A stretch of 37,293 bases of DNA from an uncultured Bacteroidales bacterium. Lineage in GTDB: Bacteria > Bacteroidota > Bacteroidia > Bacteroidales > Muribaculaceae. Numbering within the stretch: position 1 is the first letter of the stretch; each line of letters starts with the position of its first letter. Under the pieces are notes generated by a model that was not told the origin of the DNA, ran no database searches, and was given only the letters and a program-made list of their open reading frames with translations. Positions 15,491 to 34,100 of the stretch are shown piece by piece. The position numbers were made by a program, and so were the translations under genes. Location of the stretch: NCBI GenBank assembly GCA_946011725.1, contig CAMGBT010000016.1, forward strand, positions 1 to 37,293, given 5' to 3'.

Positions 15491-16575
15491 TTAATGTCGT
15501 TGAAGTGAAGTTTGAGGGCATCGAGTACTTCGGTGGGGTTGGGGATCATGCCGCCCATTCGGCCGAAGTGGTAAACGGGTATAGAGCAGTTGACGGCGAG
15601 CTGCACGTCTTCGATCATTTGACCGGCGTTGAGTTCTACCACTAACATGCCTTTGACGCGTTTGGCCAAATCGGCGAGTACTTGTTTGGGGAATGGCCAG
15701 AGGGTGATTGGGCGCACTAAGCCGATTTTGAGGCCGGCTTCGCGGGCTTCTTCGATGGCTTTGAGGCAGATGCGTGCCACGGTGCCGAATGCTACGATTA
15801 CGTAGTCGGCATCTTCGGTGTAGTATTCTTGGAAGCGGACTTCGTTGCGAGCGATTTCGTCGTAGATGGCTTGGAAGCGGAGGTTGTTTTCTTCCATTTT
15901 GGGGGATTCCATTTCCAAGGATGTGCAGATGTTGCGGTGCTTGCGACCGTGTTTGCCGGTGACGGCCCAGGGGCATTGCTCGCGGATTTGATCGTCGGTG
16001 CGGCGTGGACGTTGGGGCGGGAGCACCACTTTTTCCATCATCTGGCCCACGATGCCGTCGGCGAGGATCATCGACACGCAGCGGTATTTGAATGCGAGGT
16101 CGAAGCCGAGGGTGACGAAGTCGGCCATTTCTTGCACGGTGGCGGGGGCGAGCACGATCATGTGGTAGTCGCCGTGGCCGCCGCCTTTGGTGGCTTGGAA
16201 GTAGTCGGCTTGCGAGGGTTGGATGGTGCCGAGGCCGGGGCCACCGCGCATCACGTTGACGATCAGCGCGGGCACGTCGGAAGCGGCCAGATAGCTGATG
16301 CCTTCTTGCATCAAGGAGATGCCGGGGGATGAGGAGGAGGTCATGACGGCTTTGCCGGATGCGGCGCCGCCGTAAACCATGTTGATGGATGATACTTCAC
16401 TTTCGGCTTGGAGCACTACCATGCCGGTGGTTTCCCAGGGCATTTGCTCTTCGAGGGTTTCGAGCACCTCCGACTGGGGAGTGATAGGATATCCGAAATA
16501 GCCATCAGCGCCGTAACGGATAGCGGCGTGGGCGAGGGCTTCGTTGCCCTTCATCAATTTTACATCTTCTTCCAT
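15487..16575 (-). CDS. vorB: 2-oxoacid:ferredoxin oxidoreductase, alpha subunit (VorB/KorA-like)
   Basis: A 362-residue alpha subunit. The N-terminal pyrimidine-binding domain includes GNEALAHAAIRYGADGYFGYPITPQSE-type sequence and the MTSSSSPGISLMQEGISYL block. The C-terminal part has the transketolase-C-like VIVAFGTVARICLKAIEEA and VRPITLWPFP. Length agrees with the family. It lies 14 nt after the ferredoxin-like gene and overlaps the beta gene by 4 nt. The symbol vorB follows common annotation of homologues; korA is equally possible, because substrate choice is not readable from sequence. Confidence 0.9.
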   Translation of the reverse strand: MEEDVKLMKGNEALAHAAIRYGADGYFGYPITPQSEVLETLEEQMPWETTGMVVLQAESEVSSINMVYGGAASGKAVMTSSSSPGISLMQEGISYLAASDVPALIVNVMRGGPGLGTIQPSQADYFQATKGGGHGDYHMIVLAPATVQEMADFVTLGFDLAFKYRCVSMILADGIVGQMMEKVVLPPQRPRRTDDQIREQCPWAVTGKHGRKHRNICTSLEMESPKMEENNLRFQAIYDEIARNEVRFQEYYTEDADYVIVAFGTVARICLKAIEEAREAGLKIGLVRPITLWPFPKQVLADLAKRVKGMLVVELNAGQMIEDVQLAVNCSIPVYHFGRMGGMIPNPTEVLDALKLHFNDIK

Positions 16576-17143: not shown

Positions 17144-17398
17144 TTATTTTTTACCGCGGTTGCCGTAGCGGCTCATGAACTTGTCGACGCGGCCGGCGGT
17201 GTCGACGAGCTTTTGTTTGCCGGTGAAGAAGGGGTGAGAAGAGCTGGTGATTTCGAGCTTCACCAGGGGGTATTCAACGCCATCGATGGTGATGGTTTCG
17301 CGAGTGGCGATGGTCGAGCGGGTGATGAACACTTCTTCGTTCGACATGTCTTTGAATGCAACCGGGCGATAGTTGTCGGGATGGATACCTTTTTTCAT
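17144..17398 (-). CDS. rpmE2: 50S ribosomal protein L31 type B (zinc-independent)
   Basis: An 84-residue L31 beginning [17 protein letters not shown]. It lacks the CxxC zinc ligands of the C+ paralogue and in fact has no cysteine. [23 protein letters not shown] is the family signature. Its promoter lies across the 3' end of the PP2C gene, so it can be expressed apart from the kinase cluster. In other bacteria type B L31 is often zinc-regulated; no Zur box was recognised here. Confidence 0.95.
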
Positions 17399-17470: not shown

Positions 17471-17502
17471 CAAATTTACGACTTTTTTTTGGATTGGCCA
17501 AA
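17471..17502 (-). promoter_or_regulatory. rpmE2 promoter embedded in the end of the PP2C gene
   Basis: Minus-strand TTTG (17499-17502), 20-nt spacer and TAAATTTG (17471-17478) match the consensus exactly. The -7 box overlaps the PP2C stop codon. Initiation near 17466 gives a leader of about 68 nt with a small GGCGT/ACGCC hairpin (17437-17453). Confidence 0.75.
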
Positions 17503-18690
17503 TATTTTTGGGAAAATTTCTTGCATGGAGTCCAAAATGGTGCGGCGTTCGGGCTCATCACCTTCGGGCTCTTGGGCGCCGACGGTGGGTGTTTGCTCGG
17601 GCTCGGACGTTTCGGAAGGCCCGGCGGGGATGGTGGGCGTTTGGTCCTCGGAGCCGATTACCAAATTGGGGTTGAAGGCCGGTGCTTGGGGTTCATCGCA
17701 ATCGGGTTGGGATTCGGGGCCGTGTGTCGGGGTGGGTATGAAGTCGTCGATTTCGAAAGCGATATTCGATTGATTGTCGGGCTCGATTAGAGAGAGGGGC
17801 TCACCGGCTTCGGTGCATTCGTCTTGTTCGAATTCCGAGAGTTGTTGCATGGCAGAGTCGGTAAGTTCGGCCATACCTTGCATGGGGACGGTGGCGGATT
17901 GGAGGTCGGGGGCTTCGGATTGTTCCTGCTCGGGGCGGATGTGGTAGTCGAAGAGGACCACGGTGCAGTTGTCGCGGCCGCCGGCGCGGAGGGCGGCATC
18001 CACCAGCGGTTGGGTGGCGTCGATGCCGTACTCATTGGCGATTGCTTCGATTTCGGGGTCGCTGATCATGTCGTTGAGGCCGTCGGAGCAGATGATGAAC
18101 ATGTCGCCGTCTTGGAGGGGAAATTCATCGTTGAGTAAAGTTTTGTCGATGAATGCTTGGGGCACGCCGAGGGCGTTGTAGATGAGGTTTGACGGCACGT
18201 TGGGGTTATTTAGGCGCACGCGTTCGGAGTGGTCCACGGTGAGTTGGCGGAGGATTTCGCCTCGGAGGCGGTAAACGCGGCTGTCGCCGGCGTTGAGCAT
18301 GAAGAAAAGGCCTTCGTAGGAGAAGATGCCGGTGAAAGTGCAGCCCATGTTTTTGAGGCCGGGTTCGGATTGGCGCGAGATGATTAGATTTTGAGCGCCT
18401 TCGAACCATTCGCTGATTTTTTTGGATACCTCAAGGGGGTTGAGGCCGTTGGGGAGGTTTGTGATGAATTGGTCGAACGATTTGATGGCGATTTCGGAGG
18501 CGATTTCGCCGCCGCCGTATCCGCCCATGCCGTCGGCCACGATTGCGGAGAATCGGCCTTTGTCGAGTTTGAGGCGACCGCGGTGGCTATCATCGCGGAC
18601 GCAAGTGCCCAGGACCAAGGCCATGTCTTCGTTGTTGGAGCGGACTTGGCCCACGTTGCTAACGGCGTTGTAGGATATTGAGATGTTCAT
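17476..18690 (-). CDS. PP2C-family Ser/Thr protein phosphatase with long acidic tail
   Basis: A 404-residue protein. Residues 1-248 form a complete PP2C/PPM domain: RSNNED (17-22), ADGMGG with metal ligand D53, VDHSERVRL, CSDGLNDM near residue 201 and GGRDNCTVV near 236. All metal-binding aspartates expected for an active metal-dependent phosphatase are present. Residues 249-404 are Pro/Glu/Ser/Thr-rich and probably disordered, ending in a short basic helix (FPKIFGQSKKKS). There is no signal peptide, so it is cytoplasmic. As the last gene of the five-gene cluster it is expected to reverse phosphorylation by the membrane kinase encoded at 22784-26704. The tail may be a docking segment or a substrate. 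Confidence 0.93.
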   Translation of the reverse strand: MNISISYNAVSNVGQVRSNNEDMALVLGTCVRDDSHRGRLKLDKGRFSAIVADGMGGYGGGEIASEIAIKSFDQFITNLPNGLNPLEVSKKISEWFEGAQNLIISRQSEPGLKNMGCTFTGIFSYEGLFFMLNAGDSRVYRLRGEILRQLTVDHSERVRLNNPNVPSNLIYNALGVPQAFIDKTLLNDEFPLQDGDMFIICSDGLNDMISDPEIEAIANEYGIDATQPLVDAALRAGGRDNCTVVLFDYHIRPEQEQSEAPDLQSATVPMQGMAELTDSAMQQLSEFEQDECTEAGEPLSLIEPDNQSNIAFEIDDFIPTPTHGPESQPDCDEPQAPAFNPNLVIGSEDQTPTIPAGPSETSEPEQTPTVGAQEPEGDEPERRTILDSMQEIFPKIFGQSKKKS

Positions 18691-18744
18691 TTTTTGGGAA
18701 GTGTAAGGCGGTGAAAACCGCCGGTTATTAAAGGAGAGAGGGGC

Positions 18745-19413
18745 CTATTGGACGTAGAAGTCGTAGGTGCGGGAGAATCGGATTTGGTCGCCGATTTTGA
18801 GGGGAACGGGCACGTTCGGCTGGCATTGGATACCGTTGACGGTGGTGCCGTTGCGCGAGCCGAGGTCGGTGATAGTCCACTGCTGACCGGGGCCGCAGTC
18901 GATTCGTGCTTGGGTGCCGGAGATGTATTGGAGTGTGCAAATTTGGGCCACATAGTCGCCGTTGACGCGACCGATAACGGCTCCGGGTTTGAGTTGCAAT
19001 GAAATGCCGAGGGCGTCGGCGCGCAGGCAAGTGGGGCCGCTGTCGGAAGGTGGCAGGGCTGTGCCGGTGGATTGTTGGGGGCGGGGCGGCTGCACGGGTT
19101 GCACGGGGCGTGCCGGCTGAGCGGGCCGTGCGGGTTGAGCGGGTTGCTGTGGCTGCACCGGCTGCACGGGTTGCTGCGGCTGGCGGGGCTGTGCCGGTTG
19201 CTGCGGCTGTGCCGGTTGCGCGGCGGGCGCGGGCTGGCCGGCGGGAGTGCCGCCCGGGGCGGAGGTGGGCACCCCGCAGGTGGGGCAGAATTTGCCCTTG
19301 CGAAATTCGCCGCACTTGGGGCACTGGAGCAGTTGGGCGCCGCATTGGTCGCAGTAGCGGCTATCGTTTTCTATGTCGGCCCCGCAGTGGGGGCAAGGGA
19401 TGAGTTTAGCCAT
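18745..19413 (-). CDS. Zinc-ribbon / FHA-domain protein
   Basis: A 222-residue cytoplasmic protein with three parts. Residues 1-45 hold two zinc ribbons made by four CxxC pairs (CPHC, CDQC, CPKC, CPTC). Residues about 50-120 are a Pro/Ala/Gln linker. Residues about 127-222 are an FHA domain with VIGR and LGSRNGTTVNG (near 184). The middle FHA consensus SxxH is altered to SGTQ, so phosphothreonine binding may be modified. FHA domains read phosphothreonine, so this is a likely target or reader of the neighbouring kinase, possibly linking the phospho-signal to the AAA+ machine 18 nt upstream. The linker is encoded by a repetitive cag/ccg-rich stretch. Confidence 0.88.
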   Translation of the reverse strand: MAKLIPCPHCGADIENDSRYCDQCGAQLLQCPKCGEFRKGKFCPTCGVPTSAPGGTPAGQPAPAAQPAQPQQPAQPRQPQQPVQPVQPQQPAQPARPAQPARPVQPVQPPRPQQSTGTALPPSDSGPTCLRADALGISLQLKPGAVIGRVNGDYVAQICTLQYISGTQARIDCGPGQQWTITDLGSRNGTTVNGIQCQPNVPVPLKIGDQIRFSRTYDFYVQ

Positions 19414-19431
19414 AGTCGAGAGGATTGAAGG

Positions 19432-22400
19432 TTAGTCGCGCACGTCCATGTCGGCGGGGTCGAGGATGTAGAACGAATCTTTGGAGAAACCGGGGAGCTT
19501 CATCTCGGCGCGCAGGCGACGGCCTTGGTTGATGATGACTTTGTCCACATAGTTGCGGGCTTCGCGGGCGTTGGCAAAATTGCGTGTTTTGTGGTTGACC
19601 AACGAGGTGAAGTGGCGCAGCATGGCGTCCTTGGCGGGATCGCTTAGGCGCAAGTTGTGCACGCGGGCGAAGATATTGGTGGCGATTTCGGTGAGTTCTT
19701 CGGCATTGTAGTCGTCGAAGTTGATGGTGGTGGGGAAACGCGATGTCAGGCCGGAGTTGGTTTGGAGCCATTGCTGCATTTCGCGGTGGTAACCGGCAGC
19801 GATGCAGATGAATTTGTTCTTGTAGTTCTCCATCACCTGGAGCATTTCGGCCACGGCTTCAGCGCCGAAGTTTGATTCGCCGGAGCCGCAAAGCGAGTAT
19901 GCTTCGTCAACGAAGACCACGCCGCCCATGCCGCGCATCATGGCGGCGTGAGTTTTGGGAGCGGTTTGGCCTACGTATGGAGCCACCATGTCCTTGGCGG
20001 AGATTTCGATGACCTTGTTGGAGGGTAGCAGGCCGAGGGAGTAGAATATGTTGCCCATGAGGCGCGCCACGGTGGTTTTGCCGGTGCCGGGGTTGCCTAA
20101 GAAAAGGTAGTGGTCGAGGTTGATAGCGCCTTTCTTGCCCATGTCTTCGGCGCGGGCTTGGAGCGCCACTAAGGTGTCGGCCAGGTTGCGAATAGCGGTC
20201 TTGACGCCGTTCAAACCGGTGAGCTGGTCCAACTGCGCCATAATCTCGTCGATATTGAGCTTCTTAGGCGCGTCATAGGGGATGTCCTTGTCGGTGATGG
20301 TGATTAGGGCATCGTCGTCGGCATCGAGGTCAATATTGGCGAAGTGACGCTCCTTGGTTTGGTCGAAAAGCTTGATAATGGTGCCGGCGTTGCCGAATTT
20401 TTCGTCCTTAGCGGTGACCATCTCGCCGATTTTGCGACGGAGGAGAGCCACGGCTTCGTCGGTGATTTTGAACTTGCCTTTTTTGACCTGTTGGAGGAAG
20501 ATTTGGGTGAGGTCTTCCTCGTTATAGTCGGGGATGTGGATTCGGTGAGTGAATCGGCGCTCGAGGCCGTCGTTGGCATTGCGGATGAACTCGTCGATTT
20601 CGGTTTTGTAACCGGCGATGACGCAGATGAACTGGCCGGCGCGTTCGCTCATGCATGTCATTAGCGCGTTGACGGCTTCCACGCCCGAGGCGTCCTGAGT
20701 GCCGGGGGTGCTGACTGGCAGCAGGTTGTAAGCCTCATCGATGAAGAGGATGCCGCCCATGGCGTCGTCCACGGCCTTGGTCATGTTCTTGCCGGCCGAT
20801 TTGGCGTAAGAGTCGAAGATGTCTTCGGCTTTTTTGACGATGACTTGGTCGGTGGGGAGGATGCCGATGGCTTTGAACACCTGGCCGAGGCGGTTGGCCA
20901 CGGTGGTTTTGCCGGTGCCGGGGTTGCCGGTGAGGATGATGTGGACGTTGGTGACGGAAGCGTTGCCGATGCCGCGCTCAATCATGCGTTGCTGCATCTG
21001 CACGCTCTTGGCGATGGCTTGGATTTGCTCCTTGACGGGGCCCATGCCGATCATATCGTCGAAGGTGGCGAGGATGTCGTCGATGGATTTCTTGGAGTCG
21101 GCTTCGATGTCGGCCATGGTGAGCACGTTCTCGGTGCCGGGTTGGAGAGAGCCGTCTTGGCGGGCGGCGTCCACGCGCACGCGCATGCGCTTGACGGCGG
21201 CTTCGAGGCGGTTTTTGACTTCGCCGGCGTTGCCGAAGCGCTTGCTGCGGGTGAGGTATACCTTGTCGAAGTACGGGCCGATTTGCTGCTCCACATCATC
21301 GGCAAAGGTGATGGCGGGTTTGACGCCTTTGGCCATATTGCGGAAGATTTGGGTAAGCTCGGGGCCGGTGTAGTCGCGGAAGTTGATAGTGGTGTCAAAA
21401 CGGCGCTGCAAGCCGCTGTTGGTGCCGAGGAATGCTTTCATTTCCACGGGGTATCCGGCCATGATGCACACGAATTTGCCTTTGAGGTCTTCGCAGTCTT
21501 TGAGCAGAGTGTCCACCACTTGCTTGCCGAAAGAGTCGTCATTGCCGGAGCAGAGGGAGTAGGCTTCGTCGATGAAGAGCACGCCGCCCATGGCGTCGTT
21601 GACGGCCTTGCGCACAAGTTTGGACGACTCGCCCACGTATTGCGACACGAGTTTTTCGCGGTCGACCTCCACTAAGTGCCCGCTGGGCAGAGCGCCCATG
21701 GCGCTGAGCGCGTCGGCAAAAAGGCGTGCCATGGTGGTTTTGCCGGTGCCGGGGTTGCCCACGAAGATGTAGTGGCTCTTGACCGAGCCGTAGGGGTCGA
21801 GGCCGGCTTTGCGGGCCTGCTCCACGGTGACCGCAATTTTGCGAATTTCGTTCTTGATTTCGTCGATGCCCACGAATTGGTCGAACTCGGCCATGACTTG
21901 GTCGAACGTTTTGGGCACGAACTCCTTGCCCCGAACCTCGTCGGCCGACACGATGTTGGGCTTGATGGGGTCGGAGGCGGTGATTACGTAAGCGTCGTAA
22001 GCCAATTTGGCGGCAAAGTGGCCGTAGGGGAATGTGTCGGGGTTGTCGCGCTTGGCGGCGGTGAGCACGCGGCCGATTTTGGCGCGGGCATCGTCCTCCA
22101 CGGTGCAGCTGTATTGGTTTTGCAACTTGAAGCAGACGATGTCGGTGAGGGCGGCGATGTCGGGTGGCGGCACTTGCCAGCTGTATTGGATCTTGGCGGC
22201 CTCGGCGGGGTTGTTCTCGAAGAAGCTGCGGAGGTTTTCGTCGCCGAGGATGATAACCACGGGGCGGTCGGGGTCGTCGCACCATTCGTTGATGTTCTGC
22301 AGAATAGTGTCGAGGTCGCAGATGGAATCGGCACGGTCCTTGGGGCAGTGCTTGTGAGCCTCATCGATGATGAGCACGTTGTTGCCCACCTTTTTGGCCG

Positions 22401-22770
22401 AGGCTTTGATGTCCTTGATGAACTCGGCATAGTCCACGGATTTCACCACCGTGGGGTTGGGCGTTTTCACTATGCCGGCGGCAAAGAGTTCGGCGGCGAT
22501 GGCCTCGGCCACGGTGTTTTTGCCCACGCCCGGGGCGCCGGTGATGACGAAGCTCAGGCGAGCGCGTTGCGACACACCGCGTTGCTTGCCTTGGGCGGCG
22601 ATGGCGCGAGCGCCGTCGAGCATGGCGGTGATTTGCTTCACCAAGTTGTCCTTGCCCACAAGCGAGGCGATGCCGGTGGCGCCCATTTGCTTGGCCACAA
22701 TCGGGGTGCCACAGTGCTTGCAGTACTTGGCTTTGTCGCGGTTTTCTTTGTTGCAGGAGCTACATTTCAT
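19432..22770 (-). CDS. Zinc-ribbon protein with four AAA+ (CbbX/SpoVK-type) modules
   Basis: A 1112-residue cytoplasmic ATPase. Residues 1-21 form a zinc ribbon (C3, C6, C17, C20). Four AAA+ modules follow at about 260-280-residue spacing. Module 1 has GAPGVGKNT (78-86) with Walker B VLIIDEAH. Modules 2, 3 and 4 each have GNPGTGKTT near residues 337, 613 and 891, with FIDEAYSL, FIDEAYNLL and FVDEAYSL. Modules 2-4 resemble the CbbX/SpoVK/EccA family. Module 1 is more divergent and has Asn where the P-loop needs Thr/Ser, so it may bind but not hydrolyse ATP. Arg-rich GLERRF, SGLQRRF and SGLTSRF segments are arginine-finger candidates. It sits 13 nt after the kinase gene. Its client protein is unknown; a phospho-controlled remodelling motor is inferred. 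Confidence 0.88.
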   Translation of the reverse strand: MKCSSCNKENRDKAKYCKHCGTPIVAKQMGATGIASLVGKDNLVKQITAMLDGARAIAAQGKQRGVSQRARLSFVITGAPGVGKNTVAEAIAAELFAAGIVKTPNPTVVKSVDYAEFIKDIKASAKKVGNNVLIIDEAHKHCPKDRADSICDLDTILQNINEWCDDPDRPVVIILGDENLRSFFENNPAEAAKIQYSWQVPPPDIAALTDIVCFKLQNQYSCTVEDDARAKIGRVLTAAKRDNPDTFPYGHFAAKLAYDAYVITASDPIKPNIVSADEVRGKEFVPKTFDQVMAEFDQFVGIDEIKNEIRKIAVTVEQARKAGLDPYGSVKSHYIFVGNPGTGKTTMARLFADALSAMGALPSGHLVEVDREKLVSQYVGESSKLVRKAVNDAMGGVLFIDEAYSLCSGNDDSFGKQVVDTLLKDCEDLKGKFVCIMAGYPVEMKAFLGTNSGLQRRFDTTINFRDYTGPELTQIFRNMAKGVKPAITFADDVEQQIGPYFDKVYLTRSKRFGNAGEVKNRLEAAVKRMRVRVDAARQDGSLQPGTENVLTMADIEADSKKSIDDILATFDDMIGMGPVKEQIQAIAKSVQMQQRMIERGIGNASVTNVHIILTGNPGTGKTTVANRLGQVFKAIGILPTDQVIVKKAEDIFDSYAKSAGKNMTKAVDDAMGGILFIDEAYNLLPVSTPGTQDASGVEAVNALMTCMSERAGQFICVIAGYKTEIDEFIRNANDGLERRFTHRIHIPDYNEEDLTQIFLQQVKKGKFKITDEAVALLRRKIGEMVTAKDEKFGNAGTIIKLFDQTKERHFANIDLDADDDALITITDKDIPYDAPKKLNIDEIMAQLDQLTGLNGVKTAIRNLADTLVALQARAEDMGKKGAINLDHYLFLGNPGTGKTTVARLMGNIFYSLGLLPSNKVIEISAKDMVAPYVGQTAPKTHAAMMRGMGGVVFVDEAYSLCGSGESNFGAEAVAEMLQVMENYKNKFICIAAGYHREMQQWLQTNSGLTSRFPTTINFDDYNAEELTEIATNIFARVHNLRLSDPAKDAMLRHFTSLVNHKTRNFANAREARNYVDKVIINQGRRLRAEMKLPGFSKDSFYILDPADMDVRD

Positions 22771-22783
22771 ATATTAGAGGAGA

Positions 22784-25700
22784 TTATTTTTTGGTGAAGT
22801 AGAAGTCGTGCATAGAACCCTGAGCGGGGTTGGTGTAGGTGCCGGAGTATATGATGGTGGTGTCGTTAGAGGCAACTTGGCCATCGTAGGTTTTGCGGTG
22901 GTCGCTGTCGACGTTGAAGCGCAGATTGTTGTTATTTAATGTGCCGGTGAGGTGATGAGTCATCGGGGTAGAGTATTGGATGGTGACAACGGCGGTGACT
23001 TCGTTGCCATCCACCGAGGTGATGCTCATAGTGGCATTGCGGCCGTGGAATGCGCCGGAGTATTCGCCCGGCAATTCGTCGGCGGAAACCATTTCCACTG
23101 ACTCGGCGGCAGAGGGTTGGTAGTCGTTGGTTTCGGAACGGAGCAGCAGGCCCAGGCCGAAGGCAGTGGCAGCCAATGCAATCATGCCTAAGGATATGAG
23201 AATCACGTTCTTACGGTAGGAGCATGCTTGCTTGTAGGAGTTTTCGAAGGTGGTTTGCGGGTTGATATTACGCGAGCCGATGGTGCGTTTAGCGGTGCCT
23301 AACGCCAAGCACACTTTGTAGGTGCGGGCGGCATTGAGGTAGCGATCGTGGGTGGATTTGTCGGTGATAATGGAGTCGCTTGCGCCTTTGAATAGCTTGA
23401 CAGCCAAGTAGATAGCGGTGATGAGCATGGCCAGAGCGAGTATGTACACCGCGGCAAAGCTCAGCAGGTAGAATATGCCGAAGCCCACCCAGTAGCCGAT
23501 GAAGCCGCCGATGGCCAATGCCAAGCAGCCGCCTTCGGCGCAGAGTACGGCGCCCACGATGGCGGTGATGATGCCGGCTATCTCGCCGATGCTTTGCACC
23601 ACTTCTTGGATGGCGGTGGCGTCGCCGGTGACGGTCATCCACACCATCCACGCCAGTACGCCCACCAGCGGGGCCAAGCCCAGCCAGATGCCGGCGTTGC
23701 GCCACCATGTGAGGCCGCGCCAAGCGTTGTTGCGGTTGCTGATGGCTTCGTCCAAATCGCGGCGGGTGGCGGCGGTGGAGGCAAAGCCGGAGGCGTTGGG
23801 CGCGTAAGTGTCGATGAAGTCGTAGTACTTCTCCAGCTCGTCGAACGAGAAGGCGATGCCCTTGCGCTCGTGGAATAAGATGGTGAGGAAGTCGGCCAGG
23901 CCGCTGTTGATGTCCTTATTGAGCACTGACGATGAGATGGAACGAATCTCGCCCAAGGTGCTCACGGTTTTGCGGGTCGAAAGTGTGTAGGTGGGCATAT
24001 GGCCCAAGTACTGAATCACTTTCCACATTGCAATTCGCTGATTATAAGGAGCTGACGGGTGGTCGGAGATGTTGCGGTCGATGTCGATGATGGTTTGGAT
24101 GCCCTTGATGTATTGGAGCATCTTGCGGGCTTCCATGTATTGATACAGGCGCGAGTTGACGAAGGTGCTCTTTTGCAGCATCGGCAGCAGGTCGAGGTGT
24201 TTGCGGGCGCCGGCACTGTATTGGAAGTTGATTTCCTGTCCGAGTTGGGCGGTTGTTGCGATGGAGCCGTTGGGGGCGAGGGTGATGTCGGCCGTGGGGG
24301 CGAAGTTGTACAGGAAAAACCAGCCCTTGCTCTTGGCGGTGCTGCCGGCGTTTTTGACCATCTGGGCCAGCAGGGCGCCGCACTTGCGGTCGCTCTCGTG
24401 CGAGGACAGTGTCAGCCACGTTTGGAAGTCGGCTTGCGAGAGCATCGACAGCGAGAAGTCGGTGATGCCGTGGGCGGCCACGTTCTTGATGATTTCATCG
24501 ATGGAATGTTGGTCGTGCCACTTGTTGTCATCGGCATATTGGATTACGTAGGGCTTGGTAGCGTCGAGGCGGTAGACCAAATCGAAGGCCCACACGTTGG
24601 CATCCTTGGCTATGAGCGCCGGGTAATCGCGGGCAATCTTGGCCCACGACGGGCCGCGTTGCTCGAGGTATTTCCAGAACAGGTGGTTGGGGTCGGCCAG
24701 TTCTTTCTTATAGTCGGAGAGGAATTCCCACAGTTCGTCGGCCAAGTCTTTCTCGGTGCGGCAAGCGCGCTGCTTCTTGCCGATATATGGGGTGTCCTTG
24801 TCTAAGAGGCTGCACAGGGAGTACAGCTCCGATTCGCCCGAGGTGCGGATGCGCGAGGGATAGTTTTGGGCGAGTTTGGCGCCGTTGGCCCCTAACGAGG
24901 CGAGGTAAACCCACAGCGGGTGGTCAACGTTGCCCAATTCTTTGAGGTATTTCGCACGGTTGTTCCACAGCTCGGCGGCGATGTCCTTCTGCGCGGTGAG
25001 TGGTTTGCCGTTGAGCGAGTAGAAGGGCATCGACGGGTCGAGTTTGCGGCACAAAGCGTAGATGCCGTATACGCCCGAGCGGCTGATGATGGGGCGGAAG
25101 GTGGCTTCGAGGCGCTTAATGTCGTCGTTGCCGCGGGCGGCGAAGTAAGCCCACAGGCAGGCGCCGTGGTTGACCAAATCCTTGGCGTAGGCGGCTTGAT
25201 TGTTCCAAATTTCGGCCTTGATTTCGGCGATGGAGGAGCAGGCGGTGCGGCTCAAACCCAAGAAGGGCATGTTGGCATCGAGGGTGAGTGCGGCCAAGTA
25301 CACGCCGGCTTGGCGCTCGTCCTTGTTGGGGTACACGCGTTCCACAATCTTGTCGATTTCCATGGCCAATGACACCTTGCCGGTGCGCTCCAAGCCGCTC
25401 TTGGCCATACCGCGGTAGAGGAAGTCCTTGGCGTATTCCAGGTTCGACATCATCATCTTGGCCAATTCTTCGGGCGAGTTGGCTATGAGGTTGCGGGTGT
25501 CGTCGAACACCACGCGGAAGCCGCTCTGTGCGGCCGACTGGGCGCTTTGGGCGCCGGCGGCCTGCCGGTTGCCCTTGGCCATCGGCTTGCGCGAGGTGTA
25601 CCATTGCTTGATGTCGTCGAAGGTGGCGCGTTCGTCGGGCACGAATTGCAGCAAACCGCGCAGCAGCGATATGCAGTAGTCGCTCATGGGCTTGCCGCCG

Positions 25701-26704
25701 ATTTTCAGATAGCGTTGCAATTGGTCCACCACGGCGTTCTTACTCTTCAGGCGGAGTAAGTCGTTGTATTCCACCGCGTTATAGAAGTTTTTCACGCCGA
25801 AAATCATGGCCAGCAGGGTCATGCCCATCGAGTAGAAGTCGGTGGCATAGCCCACCACGGAGGTGCGGTTGTCGGCGGTCATGGCGCCTTCGGGCGACAC
25901 GAAGTAGCCCGACTTGGCTATGTCGAAGCTGGCCTCGGTTTTGCCTGGCTTCATCATGCGGGCGATGCCGAAGTCCGACAGCACGAATTTGCTATGGTCG
26001 GGGCTGATACACAGGAAGTTCTCGGGTTTCACGTCGCGGTGCACGATGTTGAGCTGGTGGCACTGCCGGATGCACATGGCCATGCGCATGGCTGTCTCCA
26101 CAAACTGCTCCTCGGAGGTGATGCGCACGGCGTCGAGAGCGCCGTTGGGGGCGTAGTCCATCACTTCGCAGTAGTGCTGATTGCCGGTGTCGGGGTCGCT
26201 CCACACGCCGTGGTCGCGCAGGTTGATCAGGAAGCCGCCTTGCGCTTGTTTCACCACGTTGAGCAGCGCCGCATCGGGGGTGTGCCCCACGATGTAGAGC
26301 TTCAGACAGAATTTGTTGCCACCGTTTTCCACGATGAGCACCCGCGCTTCGCCGGAGGTGGCGGGAAACGCTTGGATGGTGTTATATATGATGCCGTTGA
26401 TGATATATTGCTGATTTACAGGGATTTGGTCCACGAGGCCGGAAGGACGACGGCCGCGACCGGCGGGCGCATCGGCGGTGCCGGTGCCTGTGCCGGGAGG
26501 AACAGCGGTGCCGGTGCCGCTCGGGATGGCTGTGCCTGTGCCGCTCGGGATAGCTGTACCGGTACCGCTCGGGATGGCTGTACCTGTGCCGCTCGGGATG
26601 GCTGTACCTGTTCCGCTCGGGATAGCGGTACCTGTGCCGCTCGGGATGGCTGTACCTGTGCCGCTCGGGATAGCGGTGCCTGTATTGCGGTTGTTGTTAC
26701 TCAT
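22784..26704 (-). CDS. Large membrane-anchored Ser/Thr protein kinase
   Basis: A 1306-residue protein. Residues 9-72 are eight copies of the octapeptide GTAIPSGT (last copy GTAVPPGT). Residues about 95-375 form a Hanks-type kinase domain: K135 in FCLKLY, HRDVKPEN with catalytic D224, DFG with D244, and a YSMG segment. A canonical glycine-rich loop is not visible. Residues about 435-765 contain several degenerate repeats of about 85 residues with LDxxxPF and LWxYLxxxG motifs. Hydrophobic helices near 1003-1110 and 1170-1195 predict a multi-pass membrane region. The last about 105 residues form a beta-rich domain (GEYSGAFHGRNATMSI) that may lie outside the cytoplasm. It is second in the operon, and PP2C, FHA and AAA+ genes follow. 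Target and stimulus are unknown. Confidence 0.9.
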   Translation of the reverse strand: MSNNNRNTGTAIPSGTGTAIPSGTGTAIPSGTGTAIPSGTGTAIPSGTGTAIPSGTGTAIPSGTGTAVPPGTGTGTADAPAGRGRRPSGLVDQIPVNQQYIINGIIYNTIQAFPATSGEARVLIVENGGNKFCLKLYIVGHTPDAALLNVVKQAQGGFLINLRDHGVWSDPDTGNQHYCEVMDYAPNGALDAVRITSEEQFVETAMRMAMCIRQCHQLNIVHRDVKPENFLCISPDHSKFVLSDFGIARMMKPGKTEASFDIAKSGYFVSPEGAMTADNRTSVVGYATDFYSMGMTLLAMIFGVKNFYNAVEYNDLLRLKSKNAVVDQLQRYLKIGGKPMSDYCISLLRGLLQFVPDERATFDDIKQWYTSRKPMAKGNRQAAGAQSAQSAAQSGFRVVFDDTRNLIANSPEELAKMMMSNLEYAKDFLYRGMAKSGLERTGKVSLAMEIDKIVERVYPNKDERQAGVYLAALTLDANMPFLGLSRTACSSIAEIKAEIWNNQAAYAKDLVNHGACLWAYFAARGNDDIKRLEATFRPIISRSGVYGIYALCRKLDPSMPFYSLNGKPLTAQKDIAAELWNNRAKYLKELGNVDHPLWVYLASLGANGAKLAQNYPSRIRTSGESELYSLCSLLDKDTPYIGKKQRACRTEKDLADELWEFLSDYKKELADPNHLFWKYLEQRGPSWAKIARDYPALIAKDANVWAFDLVYRLDATKPYVIQYADDNKWHDQHSIDEIIKNVAAHGITDFSLSMLSQADFQTWLTLSSHESDRKCGALLAQMVKNAGSTAKSKGWFFLYNFAPTADITLAPNGSIATTAQLGQEINFQYSAGARKHLDLLPMLQKSTFVNSRLYQYMEARKMLQYIKGIQTIIDIDRNISDHPSAPYNQRIAMWKVIQYLGHMPTYTLSTRKTVSTLGEIRSISSSVLNKDINSGLADFLTILFHERKGIAFSFDELEKYYDFIDTYAPNASGFASTAATRRDLDEAISNRNNAWRGLTWWRNAGIWLGLAPLVGVLAWMVWMTVTGDATAIQEVVQSIGEIAGIITAIVGAVLCAEGGCLALAIGGFIGYWVGFGIFYLLSFAAVYILALAMLITAIYLAVKLFKGASDSIITDKSTHDRYLNAARTYKVCLALGTAKRTIGSRNINPQTTFENSYKQACSYRKNVILISLGMIALAATAFGLGLLLRSETNDYQPSAAESVEMVSADELPGEYSGAFHGRNATMSITSVDGNEVTAVVTIQYSTPMTHHLTGTLNNNNLRFNVDSDHRKTYDGQVASNDTTIIYSGTYTNPAQGSMHDFYFTKK
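26489..26680. repeat. 24-bp tandem repeat array coding GTAIPSGT octapeptides
   Basis: Eight in-frame 24-bp units near the 5' end of the kinase gene, seven coding GTAIPSGT and one GTAVPPGT, with third-position drift between copies. Unit length is a multiple of three, so copy number can vary without frameshift. Threonine and serine in each unit are candidate phosphoacceptors. Confidence 0.9.
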
Positions 26705-26714
26705 AATATATTAG

Positions 26715-27827
26715 TTAGAGTTTGATTTCTGAGGAAGATGTTACGTCGCGAGTGGTGCTTACCAGCACTTCTTTGGTGACCCACTTGCCGCCAAATTCCT
26801 GCACACCGCATTCCGACGGCTTGTTGTGCCAAATGTGGCAGCGGTTGCACACCCACGCGATGCGTTGCTGCTGCTTGGTCACGGTGGTCACCTTGCTGGT
26901 GGTGCTAATCATGTGCGCGCAGGCGAAATTGCGCTGCACTTCGGGCGGGTCGGCCGGATTCGGCACCATTTGATCGATTTCGGCTTGGAACTCTTTCACT
27001 TTGGCCGCATACTGCGCTTTGAGTTGGGCCAACTTGGCCGAGGTGTCGGCAAAGGAGCCGCCACCGCCGCCGAGGCTGATGTCGCCGCCGCCACTGCCGC
27101 CGCTGAGGCTCAGTTGCTGCGGCTTGGCCGTTTGCTGCTGTTGCTGCGGCTTGGCCGGCGCGGCTACGGGATTGGGCGCGGCCGTGGGCTTGGGCGCATT
27201 GCCTCGTGCACGCTCCAATTGGGCGAACTCGTCAAGCAATTTCTGCGTGGCGGCATCTATGGCCACTTCCATGTCCAACGTCTTCTGTGGCGCGGCCGAT
27301 TGCTGCAACTTCTGCTGCGCCAATTGCTGCTCCAACAGCTGGATTTGGTCCTCCAATTCCTGCATCTCTTGGGCGATTTTCAGCGCCCGTTGGTAGCGCG
27401 GGTCGGCCTTGGCTTGCTCCACGGCGTACAGCGCCATGGGGTTGAGCGGATGGTTGCACTTGCGGCAGAAGGAGCGGAAGTTCAGCGTGCCGCACTCCGG
27501 ACAGGTGATGCCGCCCCGCGGATTGCCGCACTCGGGGCAGAACATCTCGCCCATCGTCATCTCGCTGCCGCAGAAGGTGCAATTGGAGGTGGCCGGACAC
27601 CCGCACACCGGGCAAATCGCCATCCCTTCTTTGATCTGCGCTCCGCACGACACGCACCGATTGCCGCCTACCGGCGCGCCACATTCCTCGCAAAAACGCG
27701 CTCCGGGAGCCAACGGCGCCCCGCAGTTACCGCAATGTGCCCCGTCATCCGTAGCAGCCTGAGTTTGGTGTTGATGTTGGTGTTGATGTTGGTGGAGATA
27801 TTGATGTTGTTCTTGATTTTGTTCCAT
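26715..27827 (-). CDS. Multi-zinc-ribbon, coiled-coil scaffold-like protein
   Basis: A 370-residue protein. The ATG at 27825-27827 (MEQNQEQ) is preferred over an upstream TTG. Residues 7-23 are a His/Gln repeat (HQHQHQHQHQ), a possible metal-binding stretch. Residues 32-124 hold eight CxxC motifs (for example CGNC, CEEC, CVSC, CPVC, CTFC, CPEC), enough for four zinc ribbons. Residues about 145-200 are Gln/Glu/Leu-rich and likely coiled coil, followed by Ala/Pro/Gln and Gly/Ser linkers. The C-terminal region has CNRCHIWHNKPSECG, a fifth metal site. There is no signal peptide or membrane helix. It is the first gene of the cluster, 10 nt before the kinase. A scaffold or adaptor role is inferred; no catalytic motif is seen. 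Confidence 0.85.
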   Translation of the reverse strand: MEQNQEQHQYLHQHQHQHQHQTQAATDDGAHCGNCGAPLAPGARFCEECGAPVGGNRCVSCGAQIKEGMAICPVCGCPATSNCTFCGSEMTMGEMFCPECGNPRGGITCPECGTLNFRSFCRKCNHPLNPMALYAVEQAKADPRYQRALKIAQEMQELEDQIQLLEQQLAQQKLQQSAAPQKTLDMEVAIDAATQKLLDEFAQLERARGNAPKPTAAPNPVAAPAKPQQQQQTAKPQQLSLSGGSGGGDISLGGGGGSFADTSAKLAQLKAQYAAKVKEFQAEIDQMVPNPADPPEVQRNFACAHMISTTSKVTTVTKQQQRIAWVCNRCHIWHNKPSECGVQEFGGKWVTKEVLVSTTRDVTSSSEIKL

Positions 27828-27843
27828 AGCGCACAATTTTGGC

Positions 27844-27874
27844 CAAAGTTACAAAAAATTCTCCAATTACCAAA
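27844..27874 (-). promoter_or_regulatory. Promoter of the kinase-AAA+-FHA-phosphatase cluster
   Basis: Minus-strand TTTG (27871-27874), 19-nt spacer and TAACTTTG (27844-27851). Initiation near 27839 gives a leader of only about 12 nt. No other strong promoter was noticed between the five genes. Confidence 0.75.
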
Positions 27875-28349: not shown

Positions 28350-29429
28350 TTAGAAGCGGATTTTGGTGGCTTCGGTGCCTTGGCGGCGGATGTATACTTG
28401 GCCGGGGGCGGGGGTGGCCACGCGTTGGCCTTGCAGGTTGAAGTATTCCACCGGGGCATTAGTGTTGTCCACGCGGATGTCGCTCACCGAGGCCGAGGTG
28501 TAGCTCAGGTCGTCGAGGCAGGCGTAGGAGGGCACGCCGTCGTTGCTGCTTTCGGTGGTTACCTCGATTTTCTTCACCTTGCCCAGCGGGGTGAGGTCGC
28601 AGTAGGTCCAGTCGGTCACGATGTCTTGCTTGCCGTCGCGGAAGTCGGCCAGGTAGAACACCACCTCTTGGCCGTCGGGGTCATCGCCGCGGAACACTAC
28701 GCGGTGGTAGTCGCCTTCGGCGAAGGGTTGGCAGTGGCTGTCGCCCTTGGTGATGGCGGTGTATGTGTAGGCATCGTTGCACAGGTACACGCCGCCCACG
28801 GTCGAACCTTCCTTGCTTTGCAGGGTGGTGATGTAGAATTGGCCGGTCCAAAGGTTGGCATACAGCACGCCGAAGCCGGCGGATTCGTGGCCGGCGGCGG
28901 TCACGCTCTTAAACTGGCCTTCGGTGTAGTCCACGAAGTCGTTGGTATTGAGGGTGGAGGCGGCGAAACCGCTGTAGTACATCCAGTCGGGGTAGTAGTA
29001 GTTGTCGAAAGCGAAACCGCCGCTGTAGATTTTCGAAGTTTGGCCGGCCACATTGTCGGCATAACCGTTGCGGTAGGAGTTTTCGGCTAAGCCGAGGTCG
29101 TCGAAGGTGGCGTCGGCCGAGCCGCCGTACACGTCGATGTCGGCGTAGGTGCTTACGGAGGCTTCGGTGGCGTCAGTCACGGTCAGGCGCACCGAGGTGG
29201 GTGCGTCCACCTTCAGGGTGAGGGATGCTTCGGTCGACAGCGCTTCGCCGGCGAGGTTTTCCCAGCGGTAGCTGAACGGCTCGGTGCCGGTCAACTCGCC
29301 AATGGTCAGGGTGACTTCGCTGCCGGCATCGACACCTTCCACCGGTGCAATCGACACGTACAACTCGTCTTGGGCGGCGGCGCTCAGCGCCACGGCCATC
29401 ACAGCAATTGAAGTAAAGAGTTTTTTCAT
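28350..29429 (-). CDS. Secreted DUF4465-type protein under cobalamin riboswitch
   Basis: A 359-residue exported protein. The ATG at 29427-29429 (MKKLFTSIAVMAVALSAAAQ, a signal peptide) is preferred over longer upstream readings, which would run through the riboswitch platform. Residues about 25-110 look like an Ig/PKD-like beta domain. Residues about 115-310 match the DUF4465 pattern: TFDDLGL, YSGGFAFDNYYYPDW, YSGFAAS, SAGFGVLYA and CLDDL. The end has APVEYFNLQGQRV and YIRRQG...KIRF, shared with two other proteins here. A B12 riboswitch and terminator directly upstream suggest a role in capture of cobalamin or related corrinoids at the cell surface. DUF4465-type proteins occur in Bacteroidetes B12 loci as far as I recall; binding itself is inference. 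Confidence 0.85.
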   Translation of the reverse strand: MKKLFTSIAVMAVALSAAAQDELYVSIAPVEGVDAGSEVTLTIGELTGTEPFSYRWENLAGEALSTEASLTLKVDAPTSVRLTVTDATEASVSTYADIDVYGGSADATFDDLGLAENSYRNGYADNVAGQTSKIYSGGFAFDNYYYPDWMYYSGFAASTLNTNDFVDYTEGQFKSVTAAGHESAGFGVLYANLWTGQFYITTLQSKEGSTVGGVYLCNDAYTYTAITKGDSHCQPFAEGDYHRVVFRGDDPDGQEVVFYLADFRDGKQDIVTDWTYCDLTPLGKVKKIEVTTESSNDGVPSYACLDDLSYTSASVSDIRVDNTNAPVEYFNLQGQRVATPAPGQVYIRRQGTEATKIRF

Positions 29430-29465
29430 ACAGTATAGTTTTAATTTGTTGATAGTCAGTAAATT

Positions 29466-29498
29466 AAAAATCCCCGAACCATCGGCGTGGCTTCGGGG
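29466..29498 (-). terminator. Riboswitch expression-platform terminator
   Basis: On the minus strand, CCCCGAA-G-CCA pairs with TGGTTCGGGG (10 bp with one bulged G; 29472-29481 with 29488-29498) and is followed by ATTTTTAATTT. It lies between the aptamer and the ATG, as expected for a transcription-terminating OFF switch. Confidence 0.8.
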
Positions 29499-29587
29499 GC
29501 TATACTGCTGAAACATGGTGGACGACCTCACTGCGGCGGTCGCTGCTCTGTGTCTGCCCATAGACCCGTAGGCGTGCGGAGATGGCA

Positions 29588-29760
29588 CAATGGCAGGTCT
29601 TCTGACTTATCCCGGCCGGCCAACGCCTTCCCGGCCGCGAGACCAGTGGCAGGTTGTTGGGGGGCTTGCGCGCCAAGCGCGCGAGGAATTACAGCAGCGG
29701 GTACTGTCGAGGAATCACACCTCGTTCCCTTTTGATGCTCGCCAAGGCGAGCAACCATTG
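29588..29760 (-). promoter_or_regulatory. Cobalamin (B12) riboswitch aptamer
   Basis: Minus-strand sequence holds the hallmark blocks in order: GGGAAcgaGGTGTGATTCC, ACAGTACCCGCTGCTGTAA, GCCACTGG, GGGAAGGC, and the B12 box AGTCAGAAGACCTGCC (complement of 29592-29607). Terminal CAATGG/CCATTG pairing (29755-29760 with 29588-29593) closes the domain. A terminator follows at 29466-29498. Confidence 0.95.
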
Positions 29761-30208: not shown

Positions 30209-30652
30209 TTACATTAGCTCATCAGGATGGTATTCAAAACCGTTACGTTCGTATATTTCAGTGACTTCTTCATCAAATGATACCTCTTGATGGTGAGTTT
30301 TCTGCGATTGGATGTACTTAATCACAGCCGGTTTTACACTAAGTGACACCGACAATGAACAAAAACCGGAGCACCATCCCTCGAATTTTGGGAAATAGCC
30401 GGATTGTTTCATCCATAAGCTTGTTTCTCGTTTTAATTCGCCAATTATAGTTGAGAGAGCTATGGTCGGATTCAAATCGAAAAGGAAATGTATGTGTTCA
30501 GGCATCCCATTGATTGCGTGAAAGAAACATTTCTTTTTTGAAAAATAATTTGCAATCACTCGGAATAAGTCTGCCTCATGTTCGGGCGAGATTGTAGGTC
30601 GTCGATAATGAGTGCTGATAATGATGTGATATAAAGATAAAACTCTACTCAT
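30209..30652 (-). CDS. REP-associated tyrosine transposase (RAYT, Y1/IS200-like)
   Basis: A 147-residue protein from the ATG at 30650-30652 (MSRVLSLYHIIISTHYRRP). INGMPEHIHFLFDL carries the HUH-type HxH metal motif. AVIKYIQSQKTHHQ carries the candidate catalytic tyrosine and the downstream HH typical of REP-associated tyrosine transposases. A WCSGFCSLSVSLSV block also matches this family (WQ.GY.AFSVS). Length is normal and the frame is intact, so it may be active. It sits exactly between two inverted REP-like arms (30096-30200 and 30747-30851), the usual RAYT arrangement. Such single-strand-specific enzymes act on REP hairpins. A further partial copy of the arm motif occurs at 10372-10394. 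Confidence 0.9.
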   Translation of the reverse strand: MSRVLSLYHIIISTHYRRPTISPEHEADLFRVIANYFSKKKCFFHAINGMPEHIHFLFDLNPTIALSTIIGELKRETSLWMKQSGYFPKFEGWCSGFCSLSVSLSVKPAVIKYIQSQKTHHQEVSFDEEVTEIYERNGFEYHPDELM

Positions 30653-30746
30653 GATAATTATAGTTTTAATGCGCAAATATAGCAATTATTATCAACGTGC
30701 GCAAGGGTAACGTCCATTTTATTCATTCGCAAATGGGTTGAGATGC

Positions 30747-31130: not shown

Positions 31131-34100
31131 TTAGATGCGGACTTTGGTGACGGTGTTGCCTTGGCGGCGGATGTAGATGCCGGGGGCGAGCTCGCCGTTA
31201 ACGCGTTGGCCTTGGAGGTTGTAGTACTCAACGGGAGCATCCTCATTCTCTACTGCCACACCTTCCACGCCGGAAACATCGATGTTGGTGGTTCCGTTAA
31301 TTTTCAATTCATAAGTTCTTGGTGTACCGCCGAACATTTGCAGGGTGAGGTTGGTGGCATCTGCTGCGGGTGCTTTGAGGCTTGTGCTGCTTGCTACGGG
31401 AGCGGTGTACACTGCGAACGGAATCACCGGAGTGAATTTGAAGTTGAAGGTGATGTCTTTGCCAGTGTACTTACCATCACTGTTAACTTCGATAGCGTCG
31501 GGCACTTCGATGGTGAAGCCGCCTTCAGTCCAAATTACATTAGCTTCGAACGAACCTTCTTGGTCAGTGCGAGTGTAGGTAACGTGCGGGTAGTTGTAGA
31601 CTACATCTGCGTCGGTGGTGGTGAAAGGCACTTTGATTGTTGCGTACCAAGCGTTTTCATATTTAGAACCTTCGAACCATACTTTACCTGCATCAGCTTT
31701 GATGTCAATCTTGCCGGCAGATTTAACCACGATGTCGGCGGACTTGCTTTCGGAAGCAACCAAGGTGAGTTCTTGGTCGTTGACGAAGTAAGGCAAGAAG
31801 TCGAAGCGGTAGAGGCCTTCAGTTGTTTCGTCTGGGTAGCCGTTGGCAATCACTTTGCCGCCGATTTGCAGCGAGTAGGAGTCGGTTGCTTCTACGGGGA
31901 GGTATTCGCTCGGTTTGAGCTCAACGAAGAGGTTGTTGACAGCTTGGCCGAGAGCTTTGCCGGCATCGGATGAGCTTTCAAGAGCTTCGTAGTGAGCAGT
32001 AACGGGAGCCAGCGAGTAGATGACTACGGTCTTAGCTTCGGGGTCGAATACCAAGCGGTAGGTGGTGGTGATGTTTAGGTTAGATCCTTCAACGCCGAAA
32101 GTCCATTTAGCGGTCTTGTCGCCTGCATCGGTATTCCAGAGACATTCGTATTTAATACCGGTTTGAGCGGCTGTAAAAGTTCCTGTTCCGGTTTCTACAA
32201 ATTCATTGTATACGCCTTTTTTCGGAGTGAGCATGTCAGTTTCGGTATCGCTTTCGGCAGAGGTAGATTTGCTGATGTAAAAGCGGTTGCTGGTGGTGCC
32301 GAAGGAGCCTTCCCATACGTAAGTGCCATCGCCTACGAAAGTGAGGGCTTTGGAGGTTTCATCAGTGCCGCTCCAGTAGCCGCGGAGGAAGTAGTAAGTG
32401 CCGGTGGGTTCGGGATCGGGGTGGTTTTCAACTACCAATGTCATGTTGGAGGGATCGAGGGTGAAGGTGGGGTTCACCAAAGTCAGCGGGTTGTTGTCGT
32501 TGTCTTGGAACTTGATGAACACGTCTTCACCGGGCACGTTGGTGCGGCGCATTTGGTATTCGGTGCCGGGGGTGAGGTCGGCAACAGTACCGTCGTTTTT
32601 GTAGGAGTAGCCGAAGGCCTTGCCCCAGTGCGGGTCGTTGTCGGTGTCTCTGTCGGTCATGTTGGAGATTTTGAACGACACGTTCTTCATGGTGCCGGTG
32701 TAGCTCCATTCATACACCTTGCTTGTGCTGTTGTATACGAAGGTGAAGGGCTGGGATTCTTTACCGAGGTAGGTGCCGGGAGCAGTCCAACCGTTGAAAG
32801 TACCGGAGATTACGTACACCAAGTGGCTGTAGTCAGAATCAAGTGCGGTGATGGTGATTACGGGAGCGTCAGGGTTGGTGGCATTCAGAGAGATGCGGTA
32901 GCGACCGGGGGTGAGGTCCCATTGCCAGTCGTGGCCGGAGGTGTCGCTGTTACCGTTTTTGAGCTTACCGGTGGTGGGAGTGTTGACTGCAACGGTGTAG
33001 TTAGTATTGTTGTTGCAATAGAACCAGGGAGTGTAGTTGCTGGGCTTGTCTCCTTCGTTGAGACGTTTGAAGCCGAAGAAGCCGGAGTTGGACACGCGGC
33101 CTTCCCATACCCAGGTCACACCATCTGCCTGTTTGGTCATAGCGTAGTCAGCCAGAGTGTTGTCAGCGGCAGGCCAGCTACCGGTGATGATGTTGGTGTG
33201 CAAGCGCCAAACATAGTTCTTGGGTGTGACAGTGGGGCTCACAATCTTCACCTTCATAGTGGTGGGGTTGAACACGATGGTGTATTCGCCGTTGAGATTG
33301 GTTGAGAAGTCATAGCCGTTATTGTTCTTAATTTGGGCAGCGTATTCGATGTCTTTCTCGATTGAAACGTTTTCGGTGGGCGAGTTAATCCAAGTGTTTC
33401 CACCGTTGATAGCGGTTTCTTGGTCAGATTCAAGACGCTTGATGCCGAAGCTACCGGCTTTGATGGTTGCGGTAAATGAGTAAGTGCCATCGGCATGAGT
33501 CATCGTATCTTGAGTTTTCCAGTCGCCTTCACCAATACCTGTTGTAAAGATGTTACCATGGAGGCGGTAGTAGTAGGTGGTGGGGGTGTAGTTAGTGTAT
33601 GCGCTGCCATCTTTGATGGACGAAGATTCTACGTAATAAACGTTGCCGTTGGTGGCGTTGACGGAGTAGGTCGCTGTGCCGTTGGAGAAGGTAACTTTAG
33701 CGCCTTCGGCAGCGTTGTAAGAGATTTTTTTCAAAGCTTTAGTACCGTCATCTTCAACAGTGGCAGTAACGCCGCTGACAGTGACGGTTCCCCAACCCGA
33801 ACGCACAGCATCGAAGTAGATAACTTGGTCAATGGGGGTGGGTTCGGGATCGGGGGTGGAAGGCTTCTCGGTGATGGTGAGAGTGCGGGTGCTGCCGTTC
33901 ACAACGAGCGTAAATACCGGATTGGAGATAGCACCGCTTACTTTAATATCACCGCCTGTGCCAAGAGTGTAGGGGGTGTCTTTTGAGATGGTTGCAGCGT
34001 CTTGGCCGTACCAAAACTTATTGGTAAAGTCGTATATTTTGAATGTTTGACCATCCTTTAATTCACCAATCGATGAAAGGTCGTAGATGTATGTTTTACC

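Follow-up and report, generated by a model that had tools for sequence, protein, structure and literature searches.

The five-gene locus and its products

Five genes encoding a zinc-ribbon protein (ZR), a membrane Ser/Thr kinase (KIN), a multi-module AAA+ ATPase (AAA), an FHA-domain protein (FHA) and a PP2C-type phosphatase (PP2C) were found at 17476-27827 in contig CAMGBT010000016.1 of an uncultured Bacteroidales bacterium, the whole analysed stretch of which (positions 1 to 37,293; 37,293 nt) is termed the window. All five open reading frames (ORFs), and all operon features given below, lie on the minus strand in the order ZR-KIN-AAA-FHA-PP2C. The intergenic gaps of 10, 13, 18 and 54 nt, in this order, that a sequence-only reading of the window had reported are exact. 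That reading had also placed one promoter ahead of the set, and a Bacteroidota-type promoter could be read directly at 27844-27874, with TTTG at 27874-27871, a 19-nt spacer and TAACTTTG at 27851-27844. The Bacteroidota promoter consensus is TTTG/TAnnTTTG; a scan for sigma-70 promoters gave no match at this site. The operon is bordered upstream by a tRNA-Leu gene and downstream by the ORF 17144-17398, whose product reads as ribosomal protein L31 (type B).

Pfam searches bore out the kinase, PP2C, FHA and AAA+ domains called from the sequence alone, and zinc ribbons were indeed present in three members: ZR and FHA by Pfam, and the N terminus of AAA by alignment, in which Cys 3, 6, 17 and 20 are invariant. 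The ZR gene (26715-27827; 370 aa) was taken to start at the ATG at 27827, three codons downstream of the TTG start at 27836 chosen by the ORF tool. Its product comprises zinc ribbons (Pfam DZR), a coiled coil and a C-terminal W-CN..C/H..P..C..GG.W domain whose Trp, Cys, His, Pro and Gly residues are invariant in an alignment of 35 members. Comparison of its AlphaFold2 (AF2) model, which had a predicted local distance difference test (pLDDT) score of 82, with the PDB gave no fold match at E <0.001. The FHA protein (18745-19413; 222 aa; Pfam DZR and FHA) consists of two zinc ribbons, a Pro/Gln linker and the FHA domain, and the phospho-threonine (pThr)-binding residues GR, S and SxNG are present both in the window and in all orthologs checked (motif table). 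PP2C (17476-18690; 404 aa; Pfam PP2C_2, 4e-10) carries readable DGMGG, GDSR and SDG motifs and a long acidic/Pro tail, and scored 133 bits against NCBIfam Stp1, below the cut-off of that model.

KIN (22784-26704; 1306 aa; Pfam Pkinase, 8e-24) retains the catalytic HRDxKPxN, DFG and VLK motifs, as do nearly all of its orthologs (alignment, motif table). The kinase domain is followed by a predicted helical solenoid, five transmembrane (TM) segments (aa 1003-1190; 23135-23698) and a C-terminal domain, and a hydropathy scan detected no TM segments in the other four proteins. The 4+1 arrangement of TM segments is common to most orthologs. Because the number of segments is odd, the C-terminal domain is predicted to be extracytoplasmic. 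In the window it is confidently predicted to be a beta-barrel resembling avidins or lipocalins (aa 1204-1306; 22787-23095; AF2 pLDDT 88), for which the best structural alignment (VIA; model residues 824-926) was to the barrel domain of quinohemoprotein amine dehydrogenase 1jmx_A (Z 13.5, root-mean-square deviation 2.3, 96 residues), with avidins at Z of about 11. The structural matches of the KIN model cover the barrel only, the predicted solenoid lying outside the aligned part. In orthologs this end of the protein is swapped or extended, for example by FKBP (L025), SH3_3 (L171) or PG_binding_1 (L044), where L numbers denote individual loci.

The AAA protein (19432-22770; 1112 aa; Pfam AAA four times, AAA_lid_6 three times) had been described from sequence as a four-fold CbbX/EccA-like ATPase. 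The four modules and the clade both held, with the refinements that module 1 is divergent and that orthologs contain 3 to 5 modules. Module 1 (21961-22671) has the Walker A sequence GAPGVGKN, the Lys of which is lost in two orthologs (L028 and L029), whereas modules 2-4 (19447-21903) are canonical, with GNPGTGKT, FIDEA(Y) and a GY sensor (alignment, motif table). The NCBIfam models TIGR02881 (627 bits, cut-off 423), TIGR03922 (548, cut-off 467) and TIGR02880 (517, cut-off 459) were all exceeded, each over four stretches, and as these scores sum several modules they place AAA in the SpoVK/CbbX/EccA clade rather than with one equivalog. A GY in sensor 1 and an Asn near the arginine finger are the signature of this clade (PMC10659427); both are found in modules 2-4 as AGY and N.GL..RF, which module 1 does not have. 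Characterised relatives are dedicated chaperones, several of which are tied to the envelope or to secretion (PMC10659427), which would fit envelope-facing sensors such as the one predicted in KIN.

Conservation of the gene set and a shared threonine motif

The neighbourhood search across Bacteroidota that had been proposed with the sequence-only reading showed that the five genes co-occur. The loci examined were neighbourhoods of AAA orthologs, named genome contigs (mostly Bacteroidales, including many from rumen Prevotella, and one Spirochaetia metagenome-assembled genome) and further genomes. Among these, 31 complete sets with one gene order were found, namely the window and 30 further Bacteroidota loci, from gut as well as environmental bacteria. 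They range from the window's genus through further genera and families of its order to different families elsewhere in the phylum, and an arrangement that recurs intact at 30 further loci is more than chance. One additional, reordered set lies in the spirochaete genome. A few complete sets carry an extra gene or gene fragment between members, and variant sets were also seen: L044 and L045 have no ZR, L048 has the order KIN-ZR-AAA, L163 has no FHA or PP2C gene next to the others, and L180 is without ZR or PP2C.

The distribution of the set is patchy. Full-length AAA orthologs occur in part of the genus and in another family, and the ZR family, which is specific to the five-gene set, was present in 8 of 49 species of the genus and gave strong matches (E <1e-30) in 23 of 397 genomes of the family. 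A search with the kinase alignment found 6 of 393 genomes in the order and 6 of 296 in a sample of the phylum, the window's own genome counted. The flanks examined vary between species of the window's genus, consistent with horizontal spread or rearrangement. Prevotella copies occupy one constant chromosomal position, with an M13 peptidase gene upstream and genes for MetA, a U32 peptidase and a small membrane protein downstream, and have no extra partners; because these neighbours are housekeeping genes only, the five genes form a self-contained unit.

Almost every KIN protein begins with a threonine array, ahead of its kinase domain. In the window the array consists of about eight GTGTAIPS units (26482-26683; Tandem Repeats Finder, 24-nt period, 7 copies) and is a predicted phospho-acceptor platform. 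Across the KIN proteins, Thr makes up 12% of the N-terminal arrays as against 4.5% of the kinase core, and Ser 7.8% as against 5.6%. The repeat unit differs greatly between operons (e.g. ADKTLKPDV, PQKTAVA, WGGAPQASDTGRPG, DVHSTGRASG, STIRPN and SDATVRV), and in many operons the motif of the operon's own array recurs in the FHA protein, outside the FHA domain. The window's copy, STGTALPP in the FHA linker (19047-19073), matches the KIN array with p 0.001 against shuffles. Further copies are GGTSIAGG (L023), GGTAAFDLN (L048) and TTIGGR (L160), and in a distant group the motif is found at the very C terminus of the FHA protein (EKTIRV, DATVRV, DKTVRI and EKTVRI in L173, L175, L176 and L177, respectively). 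These matches lend further support to the earlier view of the set as writer, eraser and reader.

Arrays matched the linkers of their own FHA proteins better than those of other operons in a permutation test that was made after the pattern had been seen (p 1.5e-4, n=20), and also when restricted to operons under 60% identity (p 7e-4, n=12); at the strictest cut, with the 6 most divergent operons, the result was not significant (p 0.16). In a first held-out set, to which the C-terminal motifs of L173, L175, L176 and L177 belong, the summed p was 5e-4; the match was weak in L171 and lacking in L172. In a second held-out set, for which the prediction was fixed beforehand, the motif was found in L178 (DRTVRL, p 0.001) and L179 (EKTVRL, p 0.005) and no match was found in L180; held-out operons of one family have similar motifs, so these are not fully independent. 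Prevotella-type sets showed a weaker match in the N terminus of ZR instead (p 0.007), and outside these sets ZR gave no signal (p 0.22). The pattern GTA(hydrophobic)P was not enriched elsewhere in the window's genome (28 sites, as against 37 for a reversed-pattern control); 9 of the 28, on the minus strand, are those of the operon's own array and linker. In many copies, then, an operon-specific threonine motif is common to kinase and reader, which points to a phosphorylation code private to the operon by which an ATPase machine at the cell envelope would be switched.

Proposed mechanism and alternatives

We propose, with middling confidence, that the operon encodes a kinase/phosphatase switch that senses the envelope and, by means of a private pThr code, brings about the assembly of a SpoVK-type chaperone. 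The five genes would then act as one signalling-and-remodelling module, in which KIN, seated in the inner membrane, may sense the envelope through its last, extracytoplasmic domain, the part exchanged between lineages. Active KIN would phosphorylate the operon-specific Thr motif, which is arrayed in its own disordered N terminus and often occurs once or twice in the FHA protein. Binding of the phosphorylated motif by the FHA domain would collect FHA proteins on the kinase array, and the copy within the FHA protein itself could permit either self-inhibition, as in GarA/OdhI, or head-to-tail chaining. ZR and the zinc ribbons of FHA and AAA may link the multi-module AAA+ protein to this platform at the membrane, where it would remodel or activate a dedicated envelope client; PP2C would erase the phosphorylation and reset the switch. 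More tentatively, the system may be fully self-contained, with a pThr code private to each operon whose motif drifts between operons yet stays matched within them, and with a multivalent platform that both attracts and switches a multi-module SpoVK-type AAA+ chaperone at the envelope.

Several observations weigh against this mechanism, besides the post hoc timing of the permutation test and the partial dependence of the held-out operons. No motif match with the FHA protein was found in L024, L027, L155, L156, L164, L166 or L180, and the FHA proteins of Prevotella are without the array motif. The KIN proteins of Prevotella have only about 15-43 residues after the last TM segment (hydropathy), which makes extracytoplasmic sensing doubtful there. 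In the window's own FHA domain the ISGTH of almost all orthologs reads ISGTQ, with Gln replacing His, and no envelope client gene was seen to travel with the core set. The matching motifs might instead be a low-complexity coincidence or the product of gene conversion, the operon encoding an ordinary kinase/phosphatase regulator whose AAA+ protein is independent of any motif code. We consider this rather unlikely. Linkers and arrays are of low complexity, several clades have no match and the testing was partly post hoc, but the shuffle and permutation tests argue against coincidence, the match is kept where the motif shifts from the linker to the C-terminal tail, and in one family the motif is made of charged, non-repetitive residues (DKTVRI).

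A less probable explanation is that the set is a relative of TerY-P or CoCoNuT modules serving in conflict or anti-phage defence, its SpoVK-type ATPase being an effector under the control of kinase/phosphatase signalling. The defining parts of TerY-P are a PP2C, a TerY-like vWA protein and a kinase with a zinc ribbon fused to its C terminus, and in some CoCoNuT III-A operons SpoVK ATPases are found as well (PMC11090510). The present set likewise unites a Ser/Thr kinase and a PP2C in one operon and has zinc ribbons and a SpoVK-family ATPase, which some of these extended TerY-P operons share; its patchy distribution and the variable extra genes of some copies (DUF4062, RCK-like, DUF1963, GNAT, Sel1) would also suit such a role. 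However, the core has no vWA, nuclease, integrase or toxin, and it possesses FHA and ZR. Pfam found no vWA match in the five proteins or in the accessory genes scanned, and no zinc ribbon in KIN, which is membrane-bound and ends in TM segments and a beta-barrel, unlike the TerY-P kinase. PADLOC models matched the kinase and AAA, but at shared domains only, and FHA and PP2C had no PADLOC match. Since, in addition, the neighbours seen were housekeeping or secreted-protein genes, not defence genes, a defence-island reading was rejected; the Prevotella copies also hold one position without extra partners.

Least probable is a phospho-regulated controller of secretion or export like PpkA-PppA-Fha of the type VI secretion system (T6SS) or EccA of the type VII secretion system (T7SS): the T6SS also has a membrane Ser/Thr kinase, a PP2C-type phosphatase and an FHA protein, a trio in which FHA binding to kinase-made pThr drives assembly (PMC3953482), and AAA exceeds the EccA cut-off (548 vs 467 bits), but the CbbX and SpoVK models are exceeded too, so that the EccA match is at clade level with several modules summed, and no secretion genes were seen in or beside any core set. 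The T6SS reading was rejected because the TssC/VipB sheath gene (PF05943) was not found in the window's genome, which is 98% complete, while an Escherichia coli control was positive. No EccB/C/D or WXG100 partners of a T7SS were found among the operon and neighbour genes, to which the Pfam scan was limited. The present set further differs from the T6SS trio in adding the zinc-ribbon scaffold and the multi-module SpoVK-type AAA+ protein and in carrying its predicted acceptor as an array on the kinase. The flanks and the missing vWA and T6SS genes thus weigh against both the defence and the secretion explanations, and the T6SS, T7SS and TerY-P comparisons drawn from the sequence alone stand as resemblance only: the set is neither TerY-P nor T6SS/T7SS.

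Other relatives share single features. Like the SpoVK/CbbX/EccA chaperones, AAA has domains with a GY sensor and AAA_lid_6 and scores above the NCBIfam cut-offs, but it has 3-5 tandem modules, an N-terminal zinc ribbon, a divergent first module and a kinase operon. With the GarA/OdhI switches the present FHA proteins share a candidate Thr motif located away from the FHA domain itself; the motif here differs in matching a kinase-borne array and in varying between operons, and the proteins bear zinc ribbons, occur in Bacteroidota and have no metabolic target shown. ArnA/ArnB of Sulfolobus pair a zinc-finger and FHA protein with kinase/phosphatase signalling (PMC6509490), but are archaeal, involve a vWA protein as partner and have no AAA+ protein. 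A literature search, outside which most subscription papers fell, found no description of the five-gene set, and AAA, although in a known clade, was placed in no characterised system found, in keeping with the earlier designation of the five-gene cluster as a candidate for an undescribed system. The set is best called a variant of phospho-switched AAA+ regulation, with the private motif code as a novel possibility. How bacterial Ser/Thr kinases avoid cross-talk is an open question, and if the proposed code is real, kinases and readers whose recognition motif shifts jointly between operons would make up a naturally occurring set of orthogonal phospho-switches that could serve as parts. The widespread but largely uncharacterised tandem SpoVK/CbbX-type AAA+ proteins would gain a function as well, one tied to envelope sensing in bacteria common in the gut and rumen.

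Neighbouring genes and related loci

DUF1963, Sel1, GNAT, DUF4062/RCK and L026_12-like families recur near the operon in some lineages only. The M13 peptidase, MetA, U32 peptidase and an ABC-F protein, which recur beside the Prevotella copies, were rejected as parts of the system, the five genes being self-contained there. A family without a Pfam match in the members scanned adjoins the operon in seven loci (L026, at 15586-16392, L027, L028, L029, L156, L163 and L164); its members have a common C-terminal motif, GFCF.YW..K...L.E.YGI.WRSP..MNP.VMFD, and are possible lineage-specific partners. In L044 and L045, PP2C is followed by two tightly coupled genes, one for a 1020-aa DUF4062 protein and one for a membrane protein weakly similar to RCK. 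Beside the three-module version of the set (L028, L029, L157, L160 and L162), membrane proteins that have several TM segments and an N-terminal signal are found repeatedly.

In the window itself, an IS200-like (Y1_Tnp) transposase gene lies outside the operon at 30209-30685. Two predicted secreted proteins (28350-29588 and 31131-34658) end in similar stretches (EYFNLQGQRV...PGQVYIRRQG and EYYNLQGQRV...PGIYIRRQG), perhaps a sorting signal.

A cluster in another genome (G013, L036:7330-19677) encodes a 1839-aa AAA protein with several SpoVK-like modules, a kinase with tetratricopeptide repeats, a PP2C and two zinc-ribbon proteins. No FHA match was found in this locus and it was rejected as the same system, looking like a different one; it is possibly a cousin. 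The window's genome also contains a second SpoVK-like gene (G000:C26:25916-26710; 590-aa open frame), and genes of this type were seen in many species of the genus.

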